From Lysobacteraceae bacterium SCN 69-320 (lineage in GTDB: Bacteria; Pseudomonadota; Gammaproteobacteria; Xanthomonadales; Rhodanobacteraceae): a DNA stretch of 64,000 bases. The DNA lies in the NCBI GenBank assembly GCA_001725155.1, contig MEFP01000002.1:186001-250000 (forward strand), in the 5' to 3' direction. Under the pieces are notes generated by a model. It worked only from the letters and a program-made list of their open reading frames with translations. It was not told the DNA's origin and did not search any database. The translations under genes and the position numbers were made by a program. Below are positions 3,372 to 38,989 of the stretch, piece by piece (position 1 is the first letter of the stretch; each line of letters begins with the position of its first letter).

Positions 3372-4649
3372 ATGCGTCGATGGCTGGCCTCGAGTGTCGT
3401 CTGCACCTGCGCTGCGCTGATTCCGGCCGCCGTCCCGGCCGCCGCCGAGCCGCGGCTGGTCGCGCCCGAGGTGCTCGCGCTGATCCAGGACGACGATCCG
3501 TATCCGCTGCCGCGCGGCCTCAGCGCCGACGAACTGCGCGGCTGGCGCCTGCCCGATGCGCTGCAGACGCCGTACGCGCCGCCGCCGGGCCGCGTGCGCG
3601 CCCAGGCCGAATACGAGGACAACAGCGGCATCCTCGTCCGCTGGGGCTCGCAGAACGCGCTGCTGACCCAGATGACGGTCGCGATCACGAGCGGCGATCC
3701 GGACGCGGTCGTCTACGTCGTCGTGACCGGAGCCAGCCAGCAGAACAGCGCCGCGGCCACCTTGAGCGGCGCCGGCGCGGATCTGGCGCGCGTGCGCTTC
3801 GTGACCCAGGCCTGCAGCAGCGGCTGCAGCGTCTGGATGCGCGACTACGGCCCGCGCTTCATCGACGACAGCGGCCGCCGCGCCGCGGTCGACCACGTCT
3901 ACAACCGGCCGCGTCCGGTGGACGACGCGTTTCCGGCGGTCTGGGCCAGCTATTCCGGCGAGCCGAAATACGACATCCCGCTGACTCACGGCGGCGGCAA
4001 CTTCCATCTGTTCCGCAACCGCGATGCGTTCATGACGCGGCTGATCGTCAACGAGAACCCGGGGCTGTCCGAGCAGCAGATCAAGGACTACTACCGCGAC
4101 TACCAGGGCATGAACCTGACCCTGACCGATCCGTTCCCGACCAGTTACGACTCCACCCAGCACATCGACATGTGGATGCTGCCGCTGGCCGACGACAAGG
4201 TGCTGATCAGCCAGCACGCCAGTACCGACGGCGTGCCGTATACGGTGACCGAGAACACCGCCGCGCTGCTGGCCGGCCGCGGCTACACGGTCTATCGCAC
4301 GCCGGCGTGGAATACCGGCGGCACGCACTACACCTATGCCAATGCGGTGCTGCTGAACAAGGTCGCGCTGGTCTGCCAGTTCAACGGCTACGCCACGCAG
4401 AACGCCGCGGCGCTGGCGACCTTCCGGGCCGCCTTGCCCGAGCGCAGCGTGGTCGGTGTCGACTGCAGCGGCATCATCGGTCTGGCCGGCGCGATCCACT
4501 GCATCGTCATGCAGTGCCGGATCTGCTGTTCCGCGACGATCTCGGCGGCTAGCTCGCCGGATACCGCTGCCGGGGGCGATCGAGGCCGCCAGCGGCGAGG
4601 CGATCGTGCGGACGCCGGATCCCCGGGGATATGCGGACCGCGCCGCTGA
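3372..4649 (+). CDS. secreted agmatine-deiminase-like (PAD family) protein, 3' end frameshifted
   Basis: The protein begins with a signal peptide ([10 protein letters not shown] to about AAAEP, residue 26), so it is exported. The rest is a guanidino-group hydrolase of the agmatine deiminase/bacterial peptidylarginine deiminase family: [26 protein letters not shown] and the catalytic cysteine in GAIHC are all present in order. The literal frame runs to 4649 and ends in 37 residues of low-complexity, basic and Cys-rich sequence. The neighbouring frame at 4514-4552 instead reads [11 protein letters not shown] then stop, and one extra G after ATGCAG (about 4513) would join it as [14 protein letters not shown]. 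The native protein probably ends at 4552 with about 393 residues. The substrate is unknown; export argues against a purely cytoplasmic polyamine role. A GGAG sits 8 bases before the ATG. Confidence 0.85.
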
Positions 4650-4760: not shown

Positions 4761-5249
4761 TCAATCTATCTGCTCGCCGGCCGACGGACTCTTGCCCAGG
4801 GTCTCGCGCAGATAGTTGCGCGTTTCCTTGTGCGCACGCTGGCGATCGGCGTAGGTGGCGCACTGCTTGACCTTGCGATTGGAGCCGGTCGGTGCGGAGT
4901 ACTCGCAGATCAGCCGGCGGCCGTCGCGCTGGGTCAGGATCGCGTTGGCGTTTTCCTGCGCGGCGTAGATGTCGAGCTGATCGTCGTCGTCGAGTTTGGC
5001 GCCGACGCGCCGCTGCAGCACGGCGGCGATGATGTCGAGCTGTTCCTCCACCTGCCTGCGCTCGGCCGGGTTCAGGTACTCGAAGCGGCCGCCGGGCTTC
5101 ATTTCCAGGCGTATCGCCTCGGCCTGGTCGGCGAATTGCTCCTGGCGGGCGGTGTCGACGAAGCGCTTGGATGTTTCCCTTTCCCCGGCCCAGGCGGCTG
5201 CGGCCAACAGGGACAGGGACAGCATGATGGTCAGACGTGGCAATTGCAT
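4761..5249 (-). CDS. secreted protein of unrecognised family, paralogue A
   Basis: This 162-residue protein has a signal peptide ending near AAAAWAGE and is the first of three paralogues (with 5314-5817 and 6994-7539). The shared core contains RFVD.ARQEQFADQ, MKPGGRFEYLN, AQENANAILT, DGRRLICEY, APTGSNRKVKQC and ADRQRAHKETR. Two cysteines (in LICEY and KQCATY) are conserved in all three and might form a disulfide. The core is predicted mainly helical and highly charged. The start is ATG 5247-5249 with AAGGAG 8 bases upstream. It lies 64 bases after paralogue B and may share its transcript, with a hairpin between them. I do not recognise the family and assign no function. Confidence 0.8.
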   Translation of the reverse strand: MQLPRLTIMLSLSLLAAAAWAGERETSKRFVDTARQEQFADQAEAIRLEMKPGGRFEYLNPAERRQVEEQLDIIAAVLQRRVGAKLDDDDQLDIYAAQENANAILTQRDGRRLICEYSAPTGSNRKVKQCATYADRQRAHKETRNYLRETLGKSPSAGEQID

Positions 5250-5313: not shown

Positions 5314-5817
5314 TCAGCACTTGCTCGGGTCGTAACAGGAATCGGCGGGGGACTTGCTGAAGTTGTTGTACATCATGCGGCGCGTTTCCCGGTACGCGCT
5401 CATGCGGTCCGCGTAGGTGATGCACTGCTTGACCTTGCGGTTGGAACCGGTAGGCGCCGTGTTTTCGCAGATCAGGCGACGGCCGTCGCGGCGGGTCAGG
5501 ATGGCGTTGGCGGTTTCCTGGGCGGCGAGCAGATCGAGCTGATCGTTGTCGCTGAGCTGGCTGCCGGCGCGCTTGGCCAGCAGGCTCTTGATCAGGCCGA
5601 GCTGGCGTTCGACATCCTGGTGTTCGGCCGCATTGACGTATTCGAAGCGGCCGCCGGGCTTCATCTGCTGGCGTATCGCGGCGGCCTGGTCGGCGAAGGC
5701 TTCCTGGCGGCTGGCATCGACGAAGCGGTTGCCGTCATCGTTCCTGGCGGCGTTGCCGCCGGTCGGCAGCAGGAACAGAGCCAGAGCGAGCGGCAGGAAG
5801 TAGCGTGCAAAAGACAT
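5314..5817 (-). CDS. secreted protein of unrecognised family, paralogue B
   Basis: The protein has 167 residues from ATG 5815-5817, with a signal peptide MSFARYFLPLALALFLLPTG ending near NAARN. It shares with its neighbours RFVDASRQEAFADQ, MKPGGRFEYVN, AQETANAILT, DGRRLICEN, APTGSNRKVKQC and ADR..AYRETRRMM. Unlike the other two it ends in a short tail with two additional cysteines (SCYDPSKC). A strong-looking promoter (TTGACA, 17 bases, TAGGCT) lies directly upstream, suggesting good expression and possibly co-transcription with paralogue A. Function unknown; export to the periplasm or beyond is supported by the signal peptide only. Confidence 0.82.
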   Translation of the reverse strand: MSFARYFLPLALALFLLPTGGNAARNDDGNRFVDASRQEAFADQAAAIRQQMKPGGRFEYVNAAEHQDVERQLGLIKSLLAKRAGSQLSDNDQLDLLAAQETANAILTRRDGRRLICENTAPTGSNRKVKQCITYADRMSAYRETRRMMYNNFSKSPADSCYDPSKC

Positions 5818-6993: not shown

Positions 6994-7539
6994 TCAGCGG
7001 TCGAGCGTGAGCTGCCCCTTGTCGAGGTTCTCGCGCATCATGCGCCGCGTTTCCTTGTGTGCGCGTTCGCGGTCGGCAGCGGTCGCGCACTGCAGTTCCT
7101 TGCGGTTGGAGCCGATCGGCGCGCTGCGTTCGCAGACCATGCGCCGGCCGTCGTTCTGCGTAAGGATCGCGTTGACGGTTTCCTGCGCCGAATAGACTTC
7201 CAGCAGGTCTTCGTCGTCGAGTTTCCGGTCGAGCCGGCGTTCGAGCACCTTGGTGATGGCCGCGAACTGCCTGTCGATCTCGCGGCGATCCTTGCTCTTG
7301 AGGAATTCGAAGCGGCCGCCGGGCTTCATTTCGGCGTGCAGCGCCGTGACCTGTTCCTCGAAACTCTGCTGGCGCGACACGTCGACGAAGCGGTACGCGC
7401 CGCGCTCGGGCGCGGCCGTGCCGTCGGTGTTCGCGGCGGGCGGATTCTCGCCGGTGTTGGCGGCAATGCCCGCGCCGGCATCGGCCAGTGGCAGCAGCGA
7501 CGACAGCAGGACGGTCAGGGCAATGCGACGCAGCAGCAT
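6994..7539 (-). CDS. secreted protein of unrecognised family, paralogue C
   Basis: The 181-residue protein begins at ATG 7537-7539 with a signal peptide (MLLRRIALTVLLSSLLPLAD). It has a longer Gly/Pro/Thr-rich linker (about residues 25-48) than paralogues A and B. The core then follows the same order: RFVDVSRQQSFEEQ, MKPGGRFEFLK, AQETVNAILT, DGRRMVCER, APIGSNRKELQC and ADRERAHKETRRMM. It is the most divergent of the three and lies 1.2 kb from B, with an unrelated secreted gene between. Its own promoter (TTGACC, 18 bases, TAGCCT) is visible. Function unknown. Confidence 0.8.
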   Translation of the reverse strand: MLLRRIALTVLLSSLLPLADAGAGIAANTGENPPAANTDGTAAPERGAYRFVDVSRQQSFEEQVTALHAEMKPGGRFEFLKSKDRREIDRQFAAITKVLERRLDRKLDDEDLLEVYSAQETVNAILTQNDGRRMVCERSAPIGSNRKELQCATAADRERAHKETRRMMRENLDKGQLTLDR

Positions 7540-7663: not shown

Positions 7664-10021
7664 TCAGCGCGGCCCGCAGGCCAGCGCCTGGCGCGCGTAG
7701 TGGTCGTGGTCGCCGGGGCCGACATGCGGATCGGCGAGCAGCGCGGCGGTGCTCGCGTCGAGAAGGCGGCGGCCTTCCTGCGCCGCGCCGCTGCGGCACA
7801 GCGCAACGGCCAGAGCGAGGCGGGCCGCTTCGCGCGAGCGCGGCGGCATGCCGGTATCGGCCTCGCGCAGCGCGACGGCTTCGCGCAACCGCGCAATCGC
7901 GCGCGTCGTGTCGCCGCACAGGGTTTCCCATTCGCCGAGCGTCTGCAGGGTCAGCGGGCAGCGCGAGTGGTCGCCGAAGCTGCGTTCGCAGCGTGCGAGC
8001 GCCGCGTCGAGCAGCGGCCTGGCCGCGGCGGCCTGGTCCAGGCGCAGCAGGCTGCGGGCCAGACCGGTCTCGGTATTGGTCAGGCGGCGGTCGTCGGCGT
8101 CGAACAACTGGCGCTGCACGGCGAGCACCTGCGCATAGCCCGCGGCCGCGTCGGCGGTTTCGCCGCGCATGAGATGCAGCGCGGCCGCATAGCCGGCCAC
8201 GGCCTGCGGTTCCGGATGCCGCTCGCCGCGCAGGGCGATGAACGCGGCGAGCGCTTCGGCGGCGCTGCGCTGGGCGTCGTCCCAGCGTCCCTGCGCTTCG
8301 CGCACGTGGGCGAGATTGTCCAGCGCATAGGCGCGCTGCTCCTGCTGTCGTGCGCCCAGGCGCGGCAGCAGTGCGAGCACGCGTTCCAGCGCCGCGGCGG
8401 CCTCGTCGGTGCGGTCCAGCCATTTCAGCGCCATCGCCCGCGTGTTCTCCAGTTCGACGCGCAGCACGGCGTTTTCCTCGCCGGCTGCATCGAGCAGGGC
8501 CAGCGCGGCGTCGGCCGATTCCAGCGCCTCGGCGCGCTTGCCGGCACGCGAACGGATGCTCGCGAGCAGGGCGGTGCGTTCGGCGCGCAGGCGCAGCAGA
8601 TCCGGCGCCGTACCCGTGGTCGCAGCGATGGACGCTGCGATCAGCGGTTCGGCGCGCTCGTACTCGCTGAGCCCGCGCAGCGCTTCGGCCAGGGTCGCCT
8701 GCAGCGCGGCGCGGATCTCGGGCTGGTCGGCGAGCTCGCTGTCGATGCGCGCGGCGCCGCGGTCGAGCAGGGTACGCGCGTCGGGCCGTTCGCCGCGGTT
8801 GTTGTTCGGATCGGCCAGGCGGAACAGCGACACCAGGAAGTCGTTGACCGCGACGGCGCGCGCCGATTCGCGGCGCGCTTCGTGCAGCGCGGCCGAGGCC
8901 TGGTTTTCGGCAGCGAGCGCGCGGCGGCGTTCGGCATCCAGGCGCCAGACGAACAGCGCCGCGAGCGCGAGCGCGGCCGCGCCCAGGGCGACGCCGAGGC
9001 GATGCCGGCGCAGGAACTTGCGCAGCCGGTACAGCTTCGTGTCGGCGCTGGCGCGCAGCGGGCGGCCCTGGCGCCAGCGTTGCAGGTCTTCGGCGAATGC
9101 TTCGGCGCTGGCGTAGCGCTGGGCCGGGTCGGCCGCCGTCGCCCGCGCGATGACGCCGCGCAGTTCCGCATCCGGCGCCGTCGCGGCGCCGCGCGCATCG
9201 GGCGCGAGCAGCAGCTCGCGCAGCAGCAGGCCCAGGGTGTAGATGTCGCTGGCGGTCGTGACCGGCTTGCCGGCGCGCTGCTCCGGGCTGGCCCAGGCCG
9301 GCGTCATCACGCGCGTGGAGGTGTCGCGCGAGTCCGCGTCGTCGACGAGCTTGGCGATGCCGAAGTCGAGCAGGCGGGGCTGGCCGTCGGCGCGCACGAG
9401 AATGTTGGCCGGCTTGAGATCGCGATGTACGACCAGACGCTGATGCGCGTGCTGCACGGCCGCGAGCACCTGCTCGAACAGCTGCAGGCGCTGCGCCGTC
9501 GTCGGCGTGCCGCCGGAGACCCACTGCAGCAGCGGCTCGCCGGCGACGTATTCCAGCGCGAGCCAGGGCTGGCCGCCGGCGGTTTCGCCGCCATCGAGCA
9601 GGCGCGCGATGCAGGCGTGATCCAGAGTGGCCAGGATCTGCCGTTCCTGGCGCAGCCGCTGCATGCCGTCGCGCGTCGGAAAACCGCGCAGCAGCTTGAT
9701 CGCGACCTGCTGCGCATAGGCGCCGTCGGCGCGCTCGGCCAGGAATACCGTGCCCATGCCGCCGGCGCCGAGTTCGCGCAGCAGCCGGTAGGCGCCGATC
9801 TGCGGCGGCGGTGGCGCTGCGTCGAAGCGGTGCATGGCCGCGTCGACCGCGGCAGCCAGCGGATCGGTCGCATCCGCGTCGGCTTGCAGCAGACGTTCCA
9901 GCAGTTCGGCGAAATCCTCGCCGTGCTGCGCGCGCCAGCGCTGAAGCGCGGCCGTGCGCGCGGCCGGTTCCAGCGCGAGCAGTTCGTCGAAGGCGGCGAG
10001 GACGCGCGCGTCCGGCTGCAC
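7664..10021 (-). CDS. transmembrane Ser/Thr protein kinase with TPR-like C-terminus
   Basis: The 785-residue protein starts at GTG 10019-10021, one base after the stop of the sigma gene, so the two are probably translationally coupled. Residues about 78-320 form a Hanks-type kinase: glycine loop GAGGMG (85-90), catalytic loop HRDLKPAN (199-206) and DFG (219-221), all canonical. One membrane helix follows near 343-359. The remaining roughly 420 residues are Ala/Leu/Arg-rich helical repeats resembling TPRs, probably periplasmic. The kinase would phosphorylate Ser/Thr of unknown targets in response to a signal sensed outside. The pairing with an ECF sigma factor of the kinase-associated type is a known arrangement; a second pair lies at 36089-38989. 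Confidence 0.9.
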   Translation of the reverse strand: MQPDARVLAAFDELLALEPAARTAALQRWRAQHGEDFAELLERLLQADADATDPLAAAVDAAMHRFDAAPPPPQIGAYRLLRELGAGGMGTVFLAERADGAYAQQVAIKLLRGFPTRDGMQRLRQERQILATLDHACIARLLDGGETAGGQPWLALEYVAGEPLLQWVSGGTPTTAQRLQLFEQVLAAVQHAHQRLVVHRDLKPANILVRADGQPRLLDFGIAKLVDDADSRDTSTRVMTPAWASPEQRAGKPVTTASDIYTLGLLLRELLLAPDARGAATAPDAELRGVIARATAADPAQRYASAEAFAEDLQRWRQGRPLRASADTKLYRLRKFLRRHRLGVALGAAALALAALFVWRLDAERRRALAAENQASAALHEARRESARAVAVNDFLVSLFRLADPNNNRGERPDARTLLDRGAARIDSELADQPEIRAALQATLAEALRGLSEYERAEPLIAASIAATTGTAPDLLRLRAERTALLASIRSRAGKRAEALESADAALALLDAAGEENAVLRVELENTRAMALKWLDRTDEAAAALERVLALLPRLGARQQEQRAYALDNLAHVREAQGRWDDAQRSAAEALAAFIALRGERHPEPQAVAGYAAALHLMRGETADAAAGYAQVLAVQRQLFDADDRRLTNTETGLARSLLRLDQAAAARPLLDAALARCERSFGDHSRCPLTLQTLGEWETLCGDTTRAIARLREAVALREADTGMPPRSREAARLALAVALCRSGAAQEGRRLLDASTAALLADPHVGPGDHDHYARQALACGPR

Positions 10022-10022
10022 C

Positions 10023-10589
10023 TCAGGCCTCGATCGCGACTTTGAGCCAGGCCCGGGCCAGGCGCAGGTCGCGATCGACGGTGCCTTCGGACACGGCCAG
10101 GGTCGCGGCGATCTCGGCGCGCGAAAAACCGCCGAAATAGACCAGCTCCACGGTGCGCGCGCGGCGCTGGTCGGTGCGGCCGAGTTCGGCGAGCGCCGCG
10201 TCCACGCGCAGCAGCTGGGCGTCGGCCTCGGCGCCGGCGAGCTGGTCGATGGCATCGTCGATGTCGACGCGCTCCACGCCGCCGCCGCGCTTGTCGGCCT
10301 GACGCCGGCGCGCTGCGTCGACGAGGATCTGCCGCGTGGCCTGCGCGATCACATGGAAGAAATGGCGCCGGTCCTGCCAGTCGGCGTCGGCGCCGAGTAT
10401 GCGCAGCAGCGCTTCGTGGGCGATCTCGGTCGGCGTCAGGGTCGCGCCGGGTGCGCCGCGCAGCGAGTTGGCCGCGATCGCCCGGACATGGTGATAGACG
10501 AGGTTCAGCAGCGATTCGCGGGCGTCGCCGTCGCCGGATTGCCAGGCGCGCAGGAGCTGGGTGATCTGATGCGGGGGCGAAGCGAGCAT
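10023..10589 (-). CDS. ECF sigma factor, kinase-associated type
   Basis: A 188-residue sigma-70-family factor of the extracytoplasmic-function group. Region 2 is visible around YHHVRAIAANSL through HEALLRILG and FFHVIAQATRQILVD. Region 4 has the helix-turn-helix VELVYFGGFSRAEIAATLAV. The basic ARRRQADKRGGG linker is typical of the sub-group found next to Ser/Thr kinases (TIGR02999-like). No anti-sigma gene is adjacent, and in such systems the linked kinase is thought to control the sigma factor. The start is ATG 10587-10589; upstream in-frame codons are basic and not family-like. The kinase gene follows immediately. Confidence 0.88.
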   Translation of the reverse strand: MLASPPHQITQLLRAWQSGDGDARESLLNLVYHHVRAIAANSLRGAPGATLTPTEIAHEALLRILGADADWQDRRHFFHVIAQATRQILVDAARRRQADKRGGGVERVDIDDAIDQLAGAEADAQLLRVDAALAELGRTDQRRARTVELVYFGGFSRAEIAATLAVSEGTVDRDLRLARAWLKVAIEA

Positions 10590-31409: not shown

Positions 31410-32951
31410 TCAGCCGCCGAACGCGTCGGCGAACAGTCCGTCGCCGGCGAGCTCGCTGGTATTGCCGTCGGCGTCGGTCGCCGTCAGCGTGAACGGCAGG
31501 CCTTGGACGAGGCTGGCCGGGAACGTCACGGTCCTGCTGGTCTGCGCGTCGGCCAGGCCGTAGCTGTCGAGCGGGACGCCGGCGCCGGCGCCGCGCGCGA
31601 GATCGATGCGCAGCGGCCAGGCCGCGTTCGCCGCCGCGGTATCGATGCGATAGGTCAGCACGATGTCGCCGCCGGCATAGGCGATCTGCTCGATGCGCGG
31701 CGAATTCTGCAGCCGGTTGCTGCCTTCGTCGGCATCGCCGGCGTCGTTCGGCGTGGGACCGTCGGGCAGCGTTCCGCCGCTGCCGGCGAGGTCGATCGCG
31801 AGCCCGCGGTTGGCGCGGAAGCGGTTGCCCGCTGCGCTGACGCTGCGGCAGCCGATCACCGCGATGCCGGCGCCGGCGTTGTAGGCGATCCGGTTCGGCG
31901 CGTCGGCGGCGTCGCCGCCGATCGTCACGCCGCAATCGCCGCCGCCGAAGACCTGGATCGCCGGCTGCGGCGGCGCCGTGCCGCCGTTGCCGAGCGGCGC
32001 CGTGCCGCCGGCGTCGGTGCCGATGTAGTTGCCCTCGATGCGCGTGCCGGTATACGCGACGTTGCCGCCGCCGAGGTAGATCGCGCCGAGCGGATTGCCC
32101 GAGATCACGTTGCGCGCGGCGGTCGTGTCGCCGCCGATGCGTGCATTGGTCAGCGACGTCGCCGTGGAAATCGCCGCATAGACCGTATTGGGTATCGCGA
32201 CCGTACCGCCGGCGTCGGTGCCGATCAGGTTGCCCTGGATCGTCAGCCCGTCGCTCGGCCGCTGCAGCACCACGCCGCCGAACAGGCCGCTGATCAGGTT
32301 GCGCGCGGCCGGCTGCGTGCCGCCGATCCGATAGGGGCCGCCGCCGAGGTCGAAGATGCCGAAGCCCCGGCCCGCGCTGCCCGTTGTCGCCGCGGCGCTG
32401 CCGAGAATATCCGTGCCGAGGAAACAGCCTTCGACCGCGTGCGCCGCGGTACCGGCGAGCTGGATCTGGCGTGCGAAGCGGCTGATGACGAGACCGCGCA
32501 GCGTGCTGGCGGCCTGTGCCGGGAAATTCAGCGAGATCTCGATGCCATTTTGCTGATTGCCCGATGCCGTGCCGGGAGTGATTTCGATCTTCAGCACGGT
32601 GTCGAGACCGCCCTGGTCCGGTGTGCGCGTGTTCGGCGCGGCGCCGGGCTGGCTGTAGCCGTCGATCACGACGGGCTGCTCGATGGCCGGCAGCGCGGTG
32701 GCGCCGACCGTGATGCGCCAATACCCGCCGCCGGCCTGATAGCCCGGATCGCCGGGCGGCAGCGCGAACTCGATGCGGTCGGCAACGGCATCGGCGTTCG
32801 CGCGCAGCAGCGCGCCGCGCAGCGAACAGTCGCCGGCCACGGCCGGCAGGCAGTCGACGAGCGCGGCGTCGGAGCTCGTATCGACGGTGTAGGTCGCCGC
32901 CGGGGCGAGACCCGGCAGCAGCAGGACGGCGAAGAGGCGTAGCGGGGTCAT
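31410..32951 (-). CDS. secreted CSLREA-type beta-helix protein
   Basis: The protein has 513 residues from ATG 32949-32951 and a signal peptide (MTPLRLFAVLLLPGLAPA). Immediately after comes TYTVDTSSD and DCSLRGALLRAN, a close variant of the CSLREA domain that marks the start of many secreted bacterial repeat proteins. Residues about 130-400 are Gly/Asn/Ile-rich repeats such as IEGNYIGTDAGG and NLIGTDAGG, consistent with a right-handed parallel beta-helix. A fibronectin-like C-terminal part follows. It ends DGLFADAFGG, sharing a short C-terminal motif with three other secreted proteins in this window. Role unknown; surface or extracellular location is likely. Confidence 0.85.
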   Translation of the reverse strand: MTPLRLFAVLLLPGLAPAATYTVDTSSDAALVDCLPAVAGDCSLRGALLRANADAVADRIEFALPPGDPGYQAGGGYWRITVGATALPAIEQPVVIDGYSQPGAAPNTRTPDQGGLDTVLKIEITPGTASGNQQNGIEISLNFPAQAASTLRGLVISRFARQIQLAGTAAHAVEGCFLGTDILGSAAATTGSAGRGFGIFDLGGGPYRIGGTQPAARNLISGLFGGVVLQRPSDGLTIQGNLIGTDAGGTVAIPNTVYAAISTATSLTNARIGGDTTAARNVISGNPLGAIYLGGGNVAYTGTRIEGNYIGTDAGGTAPLGNGGTAPPQPAIQVFGGGDCGVTIGGDAADAPNRIAYNAGAGIAVIGCRSVSAAGNRFRANRGLAIDLAGSGGTLPDGPTPNDAGDADEGSNRLQNSPRIEQIAYAGGDIVLTYRIDTAAANAAWPLRIDLARGAGAGVPLDSYGLADAQTSRTVTFPASLVQGLPFTLTATDADGNTSELAGDGLFADAFGG

Positions 32952-33095
32952 GGCGGATTCCGGTGGGCGCGGCGGCAGTGCCGATCGCACGTACGTCCGA
33001 CACGGTGCCCGCCTGACAGTCGTGCGCAGGCTTTCGCACCATGACGCCCGCAGCCTGCCGCACAATGCGCCCGGTACCGGCGGCGGAGCACGGCG

Positions 33096-34364
33096 ATGCG
33101 GTGGACGATGGCGATGGTGGTGGTCTTGCTGTCGTGCAGTGCTGCGACGGCGGCACGCGTCGTGCCCGTGTCCGACGTCGCGGCGTTGCGCGCGGCGCTG
33201 TCGGCGGCCGCGCCCGGCGACGACATCGTGCTCGCGGCCGGCACCTATGCCGTCGACGGCAATCTGAACTGCGCGGCGAACGGCAGGGCGGACGCGCCGA
33301 TCCGCGTGCGCGCGGCCATGCCGCGCAGCGTGACCCTGCGCTTCGGCAGCGGCGGCGGCATCGTCGAAGGCTTCCGCATCAGCGGCGCCTGGTGGCAGCT
33401 CGACGGACTGGACATCGAAGGCGCCTGCGCCGTCGACGCCGACTGCGAGCATGCCGTGCATGTGTTCGGCGATGCCGAACATCTGCTGCTGAGCGACAAC
33501 GTGATGCGCGACTTCAACGCGCAGCTCAAGAGCAACGGCGTCGCCCTGGGCGGCGTCTACGTCTATCCCGACGACGCTATCGTCCAATACAACCGCTTCC
33601 ACGACACGCGCGCGCGCAATACGGCCAATCCCGTGGCCAAGCTCGACGTGGTTGGCGGGCGCCGCTGGACCGTGCGCGGCAATACCTTCCACGACTATCA
33701 GAAGCTCGGCGGCGACGGCGTCAGCTATGCGGCCTTTCTCAAGGGCAATTCGCGCGACGGTGTGTTCGAGCGCAATCTCGTGCGCTGCAGCCAGGCATTC
33801 ACCGGCGGCGTGCGCCTGGGTCTGTCTTTCGGCGGCGGCGGCACCAGTCCGGATGCGATCTGCGAGGACGGCAGCTGCACTCCGGAACATCAGTCGGGCA
33901 TCATGCGCAACAACATCGTGATGTCCTGCAGCGACGTCGGCATCTATCTCAACAAGGCGGCGAACACGCGGCTGCAGCACAACACGCTGTATGCGACTGC
34001 CGGCATCGACGTGCGCTTCGCCGCGTCGACGGCCGAGATCCGCAACAACCTGCTCGGCGGCGCGATACGTCTGCGCGACGGCGGCACGAGCACGAATGCC
34101 GGCAATCTCAGCGGCGTGACCACGGCCAGCTTCGCTGCCTGGTTCCAGGCGCCGGACGCGGCGGATTTCCGCCTGCGCGACGGCGCTGCCCTGGTCAACC
34201 TCGGCGTGGCCGCGCCGCGGACCGTCGAGGATTTCTGTGCCAACCGGCGCAGCGACGGCGCGCCCGACCTGGGCGCTCTGGAGTACGACGCCCAGCACCG
34301 CTGCGCGACCGACAGCGGCGGTGGCGTGCCGCTGCGCCTGTTCGCCGACGATTTCGACGGCTAG
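33096..34364 (+). CDS. secreted right-handed beta-helix protein
   Basis: The 422-residue product has a signal peptide (MRWTMAMVVVLLSCSAATA) and then the typical opening of a parallel beta-helix or polysaccharide-lyase-like fold (DVAALRAALSAAAPGDDIVLAAGTY). Repeating strand units follow (VEGFRISGAWWQLDGLDIEG, LLLSDNVMRDFN, VQYNRFHD, WTVRGNTFHDY, RLQHNTLYAT). The last part contains NLGVAAPRT and GAPDLGALEY, common at the end of such proteins. It ends GVPLRLFADDFDG, the shared C-terminal motif. No catalytic residues can be assigned, so lyase or adhesin roles both remain possible. GGAG precedes the ATG. Confidence 0.85.
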   Translation: MRWTMAMVVVLLSCSAATAARVVPVSDVAALRAALSAAAPGDDIVLAAGTYAVDGNLNCAANGRADAPIRVRAAMPRSVTLRFGSGGGIVEGFRISGAWWQLDGLDIEGACAVDADCEHAVHVFGDAEHLLLSDNVMRDFNAQLKSNGVALGGVYVYPDDAIVQYNRFHDTRARNTANPVAKLDVVGGRRWTVRGNTFHDYQKLGGDGVSYAAFLKGNSRDGVFERNLVRCSQAFTGGVRLGLSFGGGGTSPDAICEDGSCTPEHQSGIMRNNIVMSCSDVGIYLNKAANTRLQHNTLYATAGIDVRFAASTAEIRNNLLGGAIRLRDGGTSTNAGNLSGVTTASFAAWFQAPDAADFRLRDGAALVNLGVAAPRTVEDFCANRRSDGAPDLGALEYDAQHRCATDSGGGVPLRLFADDFDG

Positions 34365-34407
34365 TGCGGAGCGGTGCGCCGGGGCCTCGCGGCCCCGGCG
34401 GTTCAGT

Positions 34408-35859
34408 TCACTGGAAGCCGTTGGCGAAGACGCGGTCCGGCAGGAATTCGTCGGCGCCGATGTCGCTGGGCGCAATGCGTCGCTGGCGGTCGAGGTCGTC
34501 GACGACTTCGGCCAGGTTCTGGCCCGCATCGATCGCCGCGCTGCCGACGGGCAGGTGGCCGTCGCTGGAAACCGTCAGCGCGGTCTGGATGCTGTGGGCG
34601 TCGGCATTCAGTGCGGCGCGCCACTGCGCCAGCGTGCCGCCGCTTTCGATCGGACTGCCGGGGCGCTGGTCGACGAAGACGCAGGCGCCGGCGGCATCGA
34701 AGAATGCGTTGTAGTCGCTGCCCGGACTGCCGCTGAGGCCGTCCAGCCCGCCGAGTTCCTGCGAATGGCGGATGCCGACGCAGTTGCCGCCGTTCTGGAT
34801 CACGAGGTTGTTGCGCACGCGCGCGCCGATGTTCGGCGGCCGTCCCGCCTCGGGTTCGTAGTCCTGCAAGGTGACGCCGTAGTACAGCGCCGCGTGGCCG
34901 GCCTGCGCCGCGTCGACGATGGTGTTGTTCGCGACGAGGGCATTGCGCGAGGCATACAGTCCGATGCCGGCATAGCGCGTATGCCGCACGACGTTGTTGC
35001 GCACGATGCCGTCGATGGCTTCGTAGTAGTCCGGATTGGCCGCCGTGTCGAAGTATTCGGGGCTGGTGTCGAAGCCGACGAGGATGCCGGCCTCGCCGGC
35101 GTTCTCGATGCGGTTGCGCTGCACGACCGCGTTGCGCGCGCCGCCCTTGAAGTACACGCCGGTCGTTGCAGTGTCGTGGATGTAGTTGTCCTCCACGAGC
35201 ATGTTCGCCGCGTTGACGTTGTCGATGCCTTCGGCGTTCTTGTCCTCCGGCGGCGTGCCGGCCGGATAGCCGGCGCCGGAGTCGTAGATCTCGCAGCGGC
35301 GTATCGTCGCGCGGTCGCTCCTCGGCGTGATCTTGACCACGTCGCGGCCGCTGCCGTGCAGCCTGCAGTCCTCGATCACGACGTCCGTCGCGCCGTGGCC
35401 GCTCTCGCCGCCGGGCCGGTACCAGTCGGTCTGCAGGAACACGGTGTAGTAGTAGCCGCCGCTGATTTCCAGACGCGAGATCCGGCTGCCCGAGGCATCC
35501 GGGTCGATCTGCACGCAGACCGTGTCGGGCAGGTCGATCGGGCAGGCGATATGCGCCCATTCGCCCGGCTGGCTGCGCAAGGTCAGCGGCAGGCGCAGGC
35601 GCACTTCGGTTTCGGCATAGACGTTGTTGCCGGGTGGCCCGCGCAGGGTGATCGTGTCGCCGGCGGTGACGATGCCGCTGGCCGGATCGACGACGTGGCT
35701 GACGCTGCGGAACGGCTGGCCGATGGAGCCATTGCCGCTGACGTCGCTGCCGCTCGTGGAGACGTACCATTCGGCAGGCCAGGCGGGCAGGGCGGCCAGA
35801 ACCAGCAGTGAGAATCCGGCCGCGAGGCGGCCCGGGCGGGGGTAGGGCAGGAAGGGCAT
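34408..35859 (-). CDS. secreted right-handed beta-helix protein
   Basis: This 483-residue protein (ATG 35857-35859) has a signal peptide ending near PAWPAEWYVS. It has the classical start of DUF1565/parallel beta-helix proteins: YVSTSGSDVSGNGSIGQPFRS. Repeats include VIEDCRLHGSGRDVVKI, MLVEDNYIHDTATTGVY, AVVQRNRIENAGEAGIL and ALVANNTIVDAAQAGH, consistent with pectate-lyase-like coils. Near the end GSAAIDAGQN and SDIGADEF occur, then the last residues LPDRVFANGFQ carry the shared C-terminal motif. It is convergent with the beta-helix gene 33096-34364. A carbohydrate-binding or lyase role is plausible but not shown. Confidence 0.85.
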   Translation of the reverse strand: MPFLPYPRPGRLAAGFSLLVLAALPAWPAEWYVSTSGSDVSGNGSIGQPFRSVSHVVDPASGIVTAGDTITLRGPPGNNVYAETEVRLRLPLTLRSQPGEWAHIACPIDLPDTVCVQIDPDASGSRISRLEISGGYYYTVFLQTDWYRPGGESGHGATDVVIEDCRLHGSGRDVVKITPRSDRATIRRCEIYDSGAGYPAGTPPEDKNAEGIDNVNAANMLVEDNYIHDTATTGVYFKGGARNAVVQRNRIENAGEAGILVGFDTSPEYFDTAANPDYYEAIDGIVRNNVVRHTRYAGIGLYASRNALVANNTIVDAAQAGHAALYYGVTLQDYEPEAGRPPNIGARVRNNLVIQNGGNCVGIRHSQELGGLDGLSGSPGSDYNAFFDAAGACVFVDQRPGSPIESGGTLAQWRAALNADAHSIQTALTVSSDGHLPVGSAAIDAGQNLAEVVDDLDRQRRIAPSDIGADEFLPDRVFANGFQ

Positions 35860-36088: not shown

Positions 36089-36652
36089 GTGCAGCAGGAC
36101 GGCGGCGTGACGCAGTTGCTGAGGCAATGGCAGCAGGGCGATGGGCAGGCCCTCGACGCGCTGCTGCCGCTGGTCTACGACGAGCTGCGCCGCATCGCCG
36201 CGCACGAACTGCGCAGCCATCGCGGCCACGACACGCTGCAGCCGACGGCGCTGATCAATGACGTGTTCGTGCGCCTGCTCGGCACGCAGACCCTGGACAT
36301 CGGCAACCGCAAGCACCTGTATACGACCGCGGCCAAGCTCATGCGCCAGATCCTCATCGACCGTGCGCGGGCGCAGCTGCGCGACAAGCGCGGCGGCGGC
36401 CAGTGGCAGCGCGCGGATTTCGTCGAGGCCATGGCCCTGCCGATCGAGCAGGACACCGATCTGCCGGCACTGGATCAGGCCCTGACCGCGCTCGATGCGC
36501 TGGATGCGCGCATGGCGCAGATCGTCGAGCTGCGCTATTTCGTCGGCCTGGAGGTCGTCGAGGTCGCCGCGCTGCTCGGCGTGGACGAGCGCACGGTGTA
36601 CCGCGACTGGGCCATGGCGCGCGCCTGGCTGCGGCAGCGCCTGGATGCATGA
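36089..36652 (+). CDS. ECF sigma factor, kinase-associated type
   Basis: The 187-residue factor (GTG start 36089) is a paralogue of the one at 10023-10589. Region 2 appears in VYDELRRIAAHEL, LINDVFVRLLG and LYTTAAKLMRQILIDRARA, and the same basic linker (RDKRGGGQW) follows. Region 4 is VELRYFVGLEVVEVAALLGVDERTVYRDW. The kinase gene follows after 72 bases. As in the first pair no separate anti-sigma gene is present. Confidence 0.88.
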   Translation: MQQDGGVTQLLRQWQQGDGQALDALLPLVYDELRRIAAHELRSHRGHDTLQPTALINDVFVRLLGTQTLDIGNRKHLYTTAAKLMRQILIDRARAQLRDKRGGGQWQRADFVEAMALPIEQDTDLPALDQALTALDALDARMAQIVELRYFVGLEVVEVAALLGVDERTVYRDWAMARAWLRQRLDA

Positions 36653-36724
36653 CGCGCACGCGGCATGTCAGTTCCGCGGCGACTTCGACGTAAGCCCGGC
36701 CATGCCAGCCAGGCCGATCCGCCG

Positions 36725-38989
36725 ATGAACGCTGCCGATTTCCGCAGGCTGCGCGATGCGTTTCATTCCGTCGTCGCGCTGGCTGCCGGCGAGCGCGACG
36801 CGCAACTGCAGGCGCTGGCCGCGCAGGATCCGGCGCTGCACGACGGCGTGCGCGGCCTGCTCGCCAACCTGGTCGAGGACGATCTGCAGGCGCCCGCGGC
36901 GACGCCGCGGCAGATCGGTCCGTACCGGCTCGGTCCCTTGCTCGGCAGCGGCGGCATGGGCGAGGTCTATCGCGCTGAACGCACGAGAGGCGGCTTCGAG
37001 CAGTGCGTCGCGCTGAAGCTCGTGCGCGGCGGCGGGTTGACACAAGCGCTGACCCAGCGCTTTCTGCGCGAACGGCAGATCCTGGCGCGGCTGGCGCACC
37101 CGAACATCGCGCGCCTGGTCGACGGCGGCTTCACCGCCGCGGGCCAGCCCTGGCTCGCCATGGAATACGTGGATGGCGAACGCATCACGCAATACGCGCA
37201 GCGGCAGCGCCTCGATCTTGCCGCGCGTGTCGCACTGGTCGGGCGCGTGGCTGCGGCCGTGGCCTATGCACAGCGCAATCTCGTCGTGCATCGCGACATC
37301 AAGCCGGCCAACATTCTTGTCGGCGCCGACGGCGCGCCCAAGCTGCTGGATTTCGGCATCGCCAAGCTGCTCGACGACGACGGCGGCGAGCAGACGCGTA
37401 CCGCGCTGCGCGCGATGACGGCGCGCTATGCGGCGCCGGAGCAGATTGCCGGCGAGCGCACGACGACGGCGACCGACGTGTATGCACTGGGCGTGCTGCT
37501 GTTCGAGCTGGTCAGCGGCCGTTCGCCGTATGCGAGCGCCGATGCCGGCGACGTCGACTGGGCCGGTGCCGTGCTGCGCGAGGCGCCGCGCGGCCTCGCG
37601 ACAGCCTGTCTGTCGAGTTACACGCCCCGCGAGCGGCGCCGGCTCGGCGCGCTCGACCGCATCGTGCGCAAGGCGCTGGCCAAGTCGCCGGCGCAGCGCT
37701 ACGTCGGCGCTGCGGCGCTGGCCGACGACCTCGACGACTGGCTGGCCGGCCGCGCGCTGCGCAGCGGCATCGGCGGCGCGCGCGAGCAGACGCGTCAACT
37801 GCTGCGGCGCTATCGCTGGCCGCTGGCGGTGCTGGCGGCCGTCGTCGTTGCGCTGGGCACCGGCGCATTCGCCGCGCTGCGCGAGGCGCGCATTGCCGAT
37901 GAGCAGGCACGGGTCGCGCGCGCGCATCTGTCGGCGCTGCTCGGCGTGCTCGGCGCGGCCAATCCGCAGCACTATGCCGGCCGCGATCCGCATGCGAGCG
38001 AGTTTCTGAGCGCGGCGGCGCAGACTCTGCAGCGCGAGCACGCCGGCGATACCGCGCTGCTGCAGCTCGCGCTCGGCGAGATCGGTCACGGCCTGATCAA
38101 TCTCGGCAAGCCGCACGAGGCCGAAGTGCTGCTGCGCGCGGCAGCGGCCGAGCTGGAGCGCGACCCGGCTGCGGGCGCCGTGCGCAAGCTCGGCATCTAC
38201 AAGCTGCTCGCCGCGGTGCAGGACGAGCCGCGCTACCGCGACGATCTGCGCGCAACCGCCATGCGCGTCGAAGCGCTGGCCGGCGAGGTGCCGGCGGCCG
38301 CGGCGCTGGATGCGCTAGGCAGTGCGGCCGGCGCGCTGGCCAAGCTCGGCGAATTCGACCGCGCCGCGGCGCTGTTCGTCCGCGGCGATGCCTTGCTGCC
38401 GCAGGTGGACGACAGCCGGCCGGGCGCGGTGGAGAACTATCTGCGTCAACGCGGCTGGAGTGCATTGCGTGCGTTCGATCTGACCCGGGCCCGCGCTTCG
38501 CTGCAGGGGGCGCAGGAACGCATCGCGGCGACGCCGTCGGCGTTTTCGGCGATGCGCCGCGCCGAAGGCGAGCTGCTGCTCGCCCAGACCGCGCTGGCAC
38601 AGCGCGACATGGCGGCGGCGGCCGCGCATCTGCAAGCCGCCGCGCCGGTCTACGAGCGCGAATACCCGGCCGGACACGGCGAGCGCGCGAACCTGTCGCT
38701 GGCTCAGGCGCAACTGGCCTTGCTGCAGGGTGATACGGCGGCCGCGCAGGGCGCGCTTGCGGCGACGGCGGCGGCGCTCGACGCGCCCGGAGCCAGCCCG
38801 CGCGATCGGGCCGCGCGTTTCTGGATCGCGGCCGACATCGCCGCGCAGCGCGGCGATTGCGTCGCCGCCACTGCCACGGTCACGCAGGCCGAAGCGGCCG
38901 TGGCCGCGCTGCAACCGGTGCTGCCGCGCGATCGTGCGCTGCTCGCTGCCGTACAGCAGCGTGTCGCGCAGCACTGTGCCGCGCGCTGA
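36725..38989 (+). CDS. transmembrane Ser/Thr protein kinase with helical-repeat C-terminus
   Basis: The 754-residue protein (ATG 36725) has a Hanks-type kinase domain at about 66-340: glycine loop GSGGMG (74-79), VALK lysine K98, HRDIKPAN (189-196) and DFG (209-211). A membrane helix lies near 366-384. The C-terminal roughly 370 residues are Ala-rich helical repeats, TPR-like, likely periplasmic. It resembles the kinase at 7664-10021 throughout. It is followed after 17 bases by the convergent miaB gene. Confidence 0.9.
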   Translation: MNAADFRRLRDAFHSVVALAAGERDAQLQALAAQDPALHDGVRGLLANLVEDDLQAPAATPRQIGPYRLGPLLGSGGMGEVYRAERTRGGFEQCVALKLVRGGGLTQALTQRFLRERQILARLAHPNIARLVDGGFTAAGQPWLAMEYVDGERITQYAQRQRLDLAARVALVGRVAAAVAYAQRNLVVHRDIKPANILVGADGAPKLLDFGIAKLLDDDGGEQTRTALRAMTARYAAPEQIAGERTTTATDVYALGVLLFELVSGRSPYASADAGDVDWAGAVLREAPRGLATACLSSYTPRERRRLGALDRIVRKALAKSPAQRYVGAAALADDLDDWLAGRALRSGIGGAREQTRQLLRRYRWPLAVLAAVVVALGTGAFAALREARIADEQARVARAHLSALLGVLGAANPQHYAGRDPHASEFLSAAAQTLQREHAGDTALLQLALGEIGHGLINLGKPHEAEVLLRAAAAELERDPAAGAVRKLGIYKLLAAVQDEPRYRDDLRATAMRVEALAGEVPAAAALDALGSAAGALAKLGEFDRAAALFVRGDALLPQVDDSRPGAVENYLRQRGWSALRAFDLTRARASLQGAQERIAATPSAFSAMRRAEGELLLAQTALAQRDMAAAAAHLQAAAPVYEREYPAGHGERANLSLAQAQLALLQGDTAAAQGALAATAAALDAPGASPRDRAARFWIAADIAAQRGDCVAATATVTQAEAAVAALQPVLPRDRALLAAVQQRVAQHCAAR

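Follow-up and report, generated by a model that had tools for sequence, protein, structure and literature searches.

A short C-terminal tag on unrelated exported proteins of Lysobacterales co-occurs with a PDZ-type type II secretion system

Why do secreted proteins encoded side by side end in nearly the same few residues? The question is raised by a 64,000-nucleotide stretch of DNA (here called the window) from Lysobacteraceae bacterium SCN 69-320 (contig MEFP01000002.1, positions 186,001 to 250,000). In this stretch, three neighbouring genes for secreted beta-helix proteins and a more distant gene for a deiminase-like enzyme share a C-terminal motif of about nine residues. Our analysis indicates that this motif is almost certainly a real tag and very probably a targeting signal. 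It is best explained as a short C-terminal sorting tag with a periplasmic reader, which would most likely be a second, PDZ-type type II secretion system (T2SS), an explanation to which we assign a probability of about 0.5. The tag is lineage-specific, is present or absent as a group from one genome to the next, and is almost confined to genomes with an OutC-like PDZ-type T2SS (gspC-gspD-gspE).

Gene calls and translation confirmed the ends given for the three neighbours in a preliminary description of the locus (GLFADAFGG, RLFADDFDG, and RVFANGFQ). The first gene (31410..32951, minus strand) encodes a protein of 513 amino acids (aa) that matches Pfam Beta_helix below the cut-off, with GLFADAFGG encoded at 31413..31439 (minus strand). 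The second (33108..34364, plus strand, with a longer open reading frame [ORF] from 33096) encodes 418 aa, matches Beta_helix above and Chondroitinas_B below the cut-off, and ends in RLFADDFDG (34335..34361, plus strand). The third (34408..35859, minus strand) encodes a Pfam Beta_helix protein of 483 aa ending in DRVFANGFQ (34411..34437, minus strand). Its counterpart in Tahibacter soli, 78% identical at the DNA level, runs straight into the tag DAIFTNGFE. The host genome lies near Tahibacter (Lysobacterales), and Tahibacter caeni is 87 to 91% identical across the matched stretches. A single-sequence structure prediction for the 34408 protein was uninformative (mean predicted local distance difference test score of 39.9) and gave no basis for a fold search.

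The fourth gene (3372..4649, plus strand) encodes a secreted, peptidyl-arginine-deiminase-like protein (Pfam PAD_porph) and is frameshifted near its 3' end; its relatives are intact. The ORF runs out of frame a few codons ahead of the tag, which is found in the neighbouring frame as LLFRDDLGG (4523..4549, plus strand) before a stop at 4552. An uninterrupted relative in genome G289 is 83% identical and ends in LLFRDDLDG. The end proposed for the frameshift-corrected protein is borne out. Of 78 genomes searched, 13 of the 31 tagged ones and none of the 47 others yielded strong orthologues, with weak, distant homologues elsewhere. The strong matches numbered 14, and 12 of their tails were usable once the frameshifted window copy and one further locus (L339) had been set aside. 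All 12 run beyond the sequence HCI[VA]MHxP into tails such as LLFRDDLDG, LLRNGFE, and VFRSDFERGG, several of which are loose versions of the tag. The distant homologues without a tag stop at about the point where the tag starts.

Signal peptides had been claimed for all four proteins and are visible by reading; a crude predictor picked up only one of the three beta-helix genes. The further claim that the four bodies belong to different families was partly too strong because all three neighbours match Beta_helix, one of them below the cut-off.

The host genome (5.71 Mb) holds 25 matches to F-x-[DN]-x-F-x-stop and 10 to F-x-[DN]-x-F-x-x-stop, compared with 4 and 3, respectively, when each pattern is reversed, which excludes a chance origin genome-wide. 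These patterns end in TRA and leave TAG stops outside their coverage; the RLFADDFDG tail of the window lies outside their match set. Long-ORF C termini account for 33 of the 35 matches, and the other two (L003 and L012), which lie in short ORFs, were dropped. At the positions left free by the search, the 33 tails carry D at -3 (27/33), I, L, or V at -1 (33/33), G at +3 (27/33), and Q, E, or D at +5 (30/33). The resulting consensus of about nine residues is D-x-[ILV]-F-x-[ND]-G-F-[EQD]-stop.

The 33 tagged bodies are largely unrelated and mostly of exported type. They include metalloproteases, an extracellular nuclease, endonuclease I, and subtilase-like proteins as well as glucose/sorbosone dehydrogenase-like, intradiol dioxygenase-like, DUF1501-like, BNR-repeat, ELWxxDGT, and beta-helix proteins, mostly named by reading and in a few cases supported by Pfam or NCBIfam. 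A crude signal-peptide rule was passed by 16 of 25 tagged versus 66 of 304 untagged genes, and several of the nine tagged genes failing it have visible signals or misassigned starts when read by eye. Two tagged proteins (L021 and L022) have twin-arginine-like N termini by reading and are apparent substrates of twin-arginine translocation (Tat). The tag is found on both Sec and apparent Tat substrates.

The tight form of the motif is also almost confined to C termini. Of 135 copies of [ILV]F.[DN][GSD]F[EQD] in ORFs with a length of 100 aa or more, 132 lie 0 to 6 residues from the C terminus; the scan took in host-genome, T2SS, named-genome, and choice-of-anchor loci, and its zero-distance class is inflated because many of these loci had been fetched by the pattern itself. 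A looser motif occurred in 212 copies, of which 142 lie 0 to 6 residues from the end, 2 lie at 7 to 30 residues, 63 are internal, and 5 were flagged as N-terminal. By virtue of the patterns used, the 33 host-genome tails stop 0 to 1 residues past F-x-[DN]-x-F-x; elsewhere up to 6 residues follow, and once 16. One of the five copies flagged as N-terminal appears genuine: a DUF1800-like protein of the host genome, named by reading (contig C17, locus L048, 13028-14740), carries the tag-like sequence ADLIFRDGYEFP right behind its signal peptide, at the mature N terminus.

Furthermore, we analyzed how the tag is distributed across genomes. With F-x-[DN]-G-F-[EQDH]-stop, 97 of 299 genomes of the order had at least one match, with counts ranging from 0 to 46 and a bimodal distribution by genus; the reversed pattern never exceeded 2 per genome. 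Counts in 317 genomes from other orders of the class were near background, with a maximum of 5 (four of the five identical) and otherwise at most 3. To judge by the matches listed, family f7 uses the variant F-x-D-S-F-E. A search of named genomes with D-x-I-F-x-N-G-F-[EQ]-stop returned at least 112 stretches, and the 80 of them that were listed form the sample described here. Most are titled Lysobacterales, Tahibacter, Rudaea, Marinicella, or Rhodanobacteraceae, and the sample also holds metagenome-assembled genomes labelled Alcanivoracaceae, Proteobacteria, Gammaproteobacteria, and Pseudomonadota and one labelled Xanthomonas. Among four odd titles (Paludibacter, Bacillus, Planctomycetales, and Pseudomonadales), three matches lie in ORFs of less than 65 aa and the Planctomycetales one in an ORF of 412 aa. 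From this sample 83 ORFs were read, and the crude signal-peptide rule was passed by 50 of the 59 complete ones of at least 120 aa. Single-linkage clustering (E value of 1e-5) sorted the 75 ORFs with 100 aa or more, which come from 72 loci, into 34 families, the largest of which covers 14 of the 72 loci. Ordinary family conservation, named in the preliminary description as an outcome that would undo its proposal, is excluded by this diversity. Enrichment at the C termini of unrelated secreted-type proteins was found both in the host genome and in relatives, and it supports the suggestion made there of a sorting, secretion, or interaction tag used by this lineage.

Like C-terminal sorting signals in general, the tag is a common C terminus on otherwise unrelated exported proteins, with many per genome. 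None of the 33 host-genome tails has the tripartite arrangement of signature motif, transmembrane helix, and basic cluster. When the last 45 residues of these proteins were searched against NCBIfam and Pfam at E values up to 10, no sorting-signal model was among the 6 and 11 families matched, respectively; covered residues were shown for the first member of each family only. The named families comprised choice_anch_Q in four members and several others in a single member each, such as choice_anch_X, the GlyGly-anchored exonuclease ExeM, and ELWxxDGT. This agrees with the earlier statement that the tag is unlike PEP-CTERM and GlyGly-CTERM in lacking a membrane helix and a basic tail.

The position of the tag relative to known anchors was examined in choice-of-anchor Q proteins. 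Thirty loci from 30 genomes gave 22 complete ORFs, 15 from tagged genomes and 7 from low-tag or tagless ones. In the tagged genomes, 13 of 15 terminate with the tag or a version of it, two of these 13 with long tails, and 2 do not. Among the other seven, the proteins of G029 and G051 (family f10, GspC-PDZ present) carry IPTL-type tails confirmed by TIGR04174, that of G097 ends in LLFKDGMEDQ, and four have no recognised anchor. The tag fills a slot that is used in other proteins by IPTL- or GlyGly-CTERM anchors. The genome with the variant end LLFKDGMEDQ (G097, family f8, locus L293) has 19 IPTL-CTERM matches. In two choice-of-anchor Q proteins (loci L286 and L288, genomes G057 and G000), a longer tail that contains a cysteine and ends in one or more arginines extends beyond the motif or its variant.

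If the tag is a targeting signal, which export system goes with it? We searched for the secretin GspD (model TIGR02517) in a panel of 77 genomes, 27 with at least three tags and 50 with fewer. A match was present in 76 of 77 genomes, and the T2SS as such was rejected as the discriminating gene because GspD scored above the cut-off in 75 of 77; only the PDZ-type subset discriminates. The genome without a GspD match (G019) is the only zero-tag genome among the 33 of family f9. By score, the tagged panel genomes hold two GspD types. In the host genome, the type-A T2SS consists of a gspC-gspD-gspE cluster next to rhlB, trxA, and rho; that of type B is an Xps-like full operon. The type-A GspC is OutC-like (6hcg, E value of 1.5e-19) and has a Pfam PDZ_2 domain. 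The type-B GspC matches T2SSC alone, below the cut-off, and gave no PDZ match.

For the PDZ-type GspC, model TIGR01713 was run against the same 299 genomes, which were counted as tagged if they have three or more strict tags. At completeness of at least 95% and an E value of 1e-15, GspC-PDZ was found in 47 of 47 tagged genomes versus 19 of 178 others; at 1e-9 the others rose to 25 of 178, the additional ones being in part weak matches in family f2. The numbers were 55/57 versus 27/192 at completeness of at least 90% and 68/73 versus 45/226 over all genomes. The association also holds within three families (at least 90% complete), with 10/10 tagged versus 2/66 others in f1, 2/2 versus 0/76 in f2, and 2/2 versus 1/22 in f8. 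In the panel, GspC-PDZ was present at 1e-9 in 27 of 27 tagged and 9 of 50 other genomes.

Several observations weigh against a direct role of this system. In family f10 (at least 90% complete), GspC-PDZ occurs in both tagged genomes but also in 20 of 23 low-tag genomes, and G227, G255, G082, and others likewise have it without strict tags. Conversely, five tagged genomes (G048, G059, G118, G182, and G212) gave no GspC match; these are 60 to 94% complete, two of them 90 to 94%. Other families co-distribute with the tag as well, namely, choice-of-anchor Q (27/27 tagged versus 18/50 other panel genomes) and IPTL-CTERM (23/27 versus 16/52), so that GspC-PDZ is the best of the three profiles tried and not a unique one. 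Thirteen panel genomes combine GspC-PDZ with a low or zero count of strict tags, and 9 of these have IPTL-CTERM, versus 7 of 39 genomes with neither GspC-PDZ nor tags. PDZ domains bind the free, usually hydrophobic C-terminal residue of their ligands in the PDZ groove. The tag ends mostly in E, Q, or D and may be followed by further residues, which seems a poor fit to a classical PDZ carboxylate ligand. By eye, the PDZ sequences of 26 GspC proteins showed no decisive difference between tagged and untagged genomes. Tagged genes are also not significantly enriched beside the type-A cluster, with 8 observed versus 5.1 expected in 20-kb stretches around 62 loci (P = 0.15). Finally, the link to the T2SS is a correlation, and independent gains and losses were judged by family labels, without a species tree.

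Linkage between the tag and the type-A cluster was rejected as a candidate: an early signal in the first 22 loci (strict pattern, 5 observed versus 1.9 expected, P = 0.044) was lost with all 62, the further 40 giving 3 observed versus 3.2 expected. A relaxed scan of the first locus set had found a tag in 7 of 22 type-A versus 0 of 18 type-B loci. In genus g12 of family f1 (G105 and G277), a tagged gene, an extracytoplasmic function (ECF) sigma factor gene, and a kinase gene adjoin gspC.

The preliminary description had expected co-occurrence of the motif with one processing or secretion gene. This stood insofar as every tagged genome of at least 95% completeness has GspC-PDZ; some clades have GspC-PDZ without the tag, and further gene families share the distribution. 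Since GspC-PDZ is present in nearly all tagged genomes and also in low-tag ones of family f10, the PDZ-type system looks close to necessary for the tag and not sufficient, with f10 as the clear exception.

In the preferred reading of a periplasmic sorting tag, a tagged protein would be exported by Sec or Tat and fold in the periplasm, where its exposed tail would be recognised and the protein would enter the second, PDZ-type T2SS, possibly through recognition by the PDZ domain of GspC. The PDZ-less, Xps-like system would take other cargo. On the basis of co-occurrence alone, we put the PDZ-type T2SS at roughly even odds as the route of the tagged proteins. That the PDZ domain of GspC is the receptor seems rather doubtful. 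Slightly more doubtful still is the full proposal that the nonapeptide is a linear C-terminal T2SS signal, bound by GspC-PDZ and enough by itself to direct a folded protein from the periplasm into one of the two T2SSs present in the same cell. As the tag occurs almost only in genomes with a PDZ-type T2SS, it may be the kind of linear secretion signal that has long been held absent for this pathway. Three papers describe T2SS substrates as having no linear universal secretion signal, with the PDZ domain of EpsC needed for VesB (PMC12369372), no conserved signal as known, with a helix in place of the PDZ fold in XpsC, formerly XpsN (PMC11981180), and common linear sequences as absent (PMC7949064).

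Chance, or homology through a common C-terminal domain, could be suspected given that all but one of the four proteins in the window are of beta-helix type and that the largest cluster of tagged ORFs spans 14 of the 72 listed loci. Against this stand the 34 families among the same loci, the far lower counts with reversed patterns and in other orders, and the distant deiminase homologues that end about where the tag starts. On these grounds, we rejected both and regard them as having a negligible probability. A role in extracellular protein-protein interaction or assembly, e.g., docking on a surface scaffold or matrix with no part in export, would fit a short motif that ends many enzymes and beta-helix proteins. 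A tight motif nearly restricted to C termini is, however, unlike a repeated module, and we know of no scaffold candidate, although scaffolds were not searched for; we consider this explanation improbable.

A stronger competitor is a surface-retention or processing signal, in which the proteins cross the outer membrane by the T2SS anyway and an enzyme or receptor, acting like rhombosortase, then anchors or trims the tail. The tag sits in the slot of IPTL- or GlyGly-type anchors, and known C-terminal signals pair many-to-one with a single enzyme, according to PMC3237569. This explanation would also account for PDZ-type systems without tags. However, the tag offers no membrane helix or basic tail to hold the substrate for a membrane protease. 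Also, no candidate enzyme was found, the profiles used being those for GspD, GspC, choice-of-anchor Q, IPTL-CTERM, and the deiminase and not those for rhombosortase or exosortase. We therefore judge retention or processing as possible but unlikely, if less so than an interaction role.

The periplasmic sorting tag that we favor has partial parallels in known systems. GlyGly-CTERM is likewise a C-terminal signal common to unrelated exported proteins, and its pairing with rhombosortase was found by phylogenetic profiling (PMC3237569), the same logic as that of our co-distribution analysis; its carriers include T2SS cargo such as VesB (PMC13393428). Unlike the present tag of about nine residues, it combines its motif with a membrane helix and a basic tail. 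T2SS substrates read by the PDZ domain of GspC (VesB by EpsC, PelI by OutC) resemble the tagged proteins in being folded Sec or Tat substrates for some of which the PDZ domain is required or binds (PMC12369372). In contrast to the tag, their known determinants are structural (immunoglobulin or Fn3 folds), with a linear signal described as absent in the same paper. PEP-CTERM with exosortase, IPTL-CTERM, and MYXO-CTERM with myxosortase are also C-terminal sorting signals, and IPTL-CTERM takes the same slot behind choice-of-anchor Q in two genomes (G051 and G029); the tag lacks their tripartite architecture and matches none of the sorting-signal models. Another C-terminal signal for export across the Gram-negative outer membrane is the C-terminal domain of type IX secretion in Bacteroidota, which is a folded domain of roughly 70 to 100 residues, unlike the short gammaproteobacterial peptide described here. 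No description of the tag was found in the open-access PubMed Central literature, as judged by titles and the starts of abstracts; 18 literal text matches fall in papers with unrelated titles.

A tag on dozens of proteins that is tied to one of two coexisting T2SSs would make cargo recognition by the T2SS testable. Whatever the route, the tag allows part of the proteins outside the cell to be predicted purely from sequence in a large order that has been little studied.

Besides the tagged genes, the window encodes three related, small exported-type proteins close to one another on the minus strand (4761-5225, 5314-5817, and 6994-7539) that carry no tag. An ECF sigma factor gene (36089..36652, plus strand; PF07638, E value of 6.7e-52) adjoins the tagged cluster and is paired with a Ser/Thr protein kinase gene (36725..38989, plus strand; gene call); both are associated with the tag without being part of it. 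Such pairs recur near tagged genes, in the window at 36089-38989 and at 7664-10589. The kinase family of 36725..38989 was found again in 8 of 21 stretches examined, all of which had been chosen around tagged genes. Strong PF07638 genes lay within 5 kb of a tag in 5 of 22 cases versus 1.22 expected (P = 0.006); limits of 3 kb and 8 kb each gave P = 0.036.

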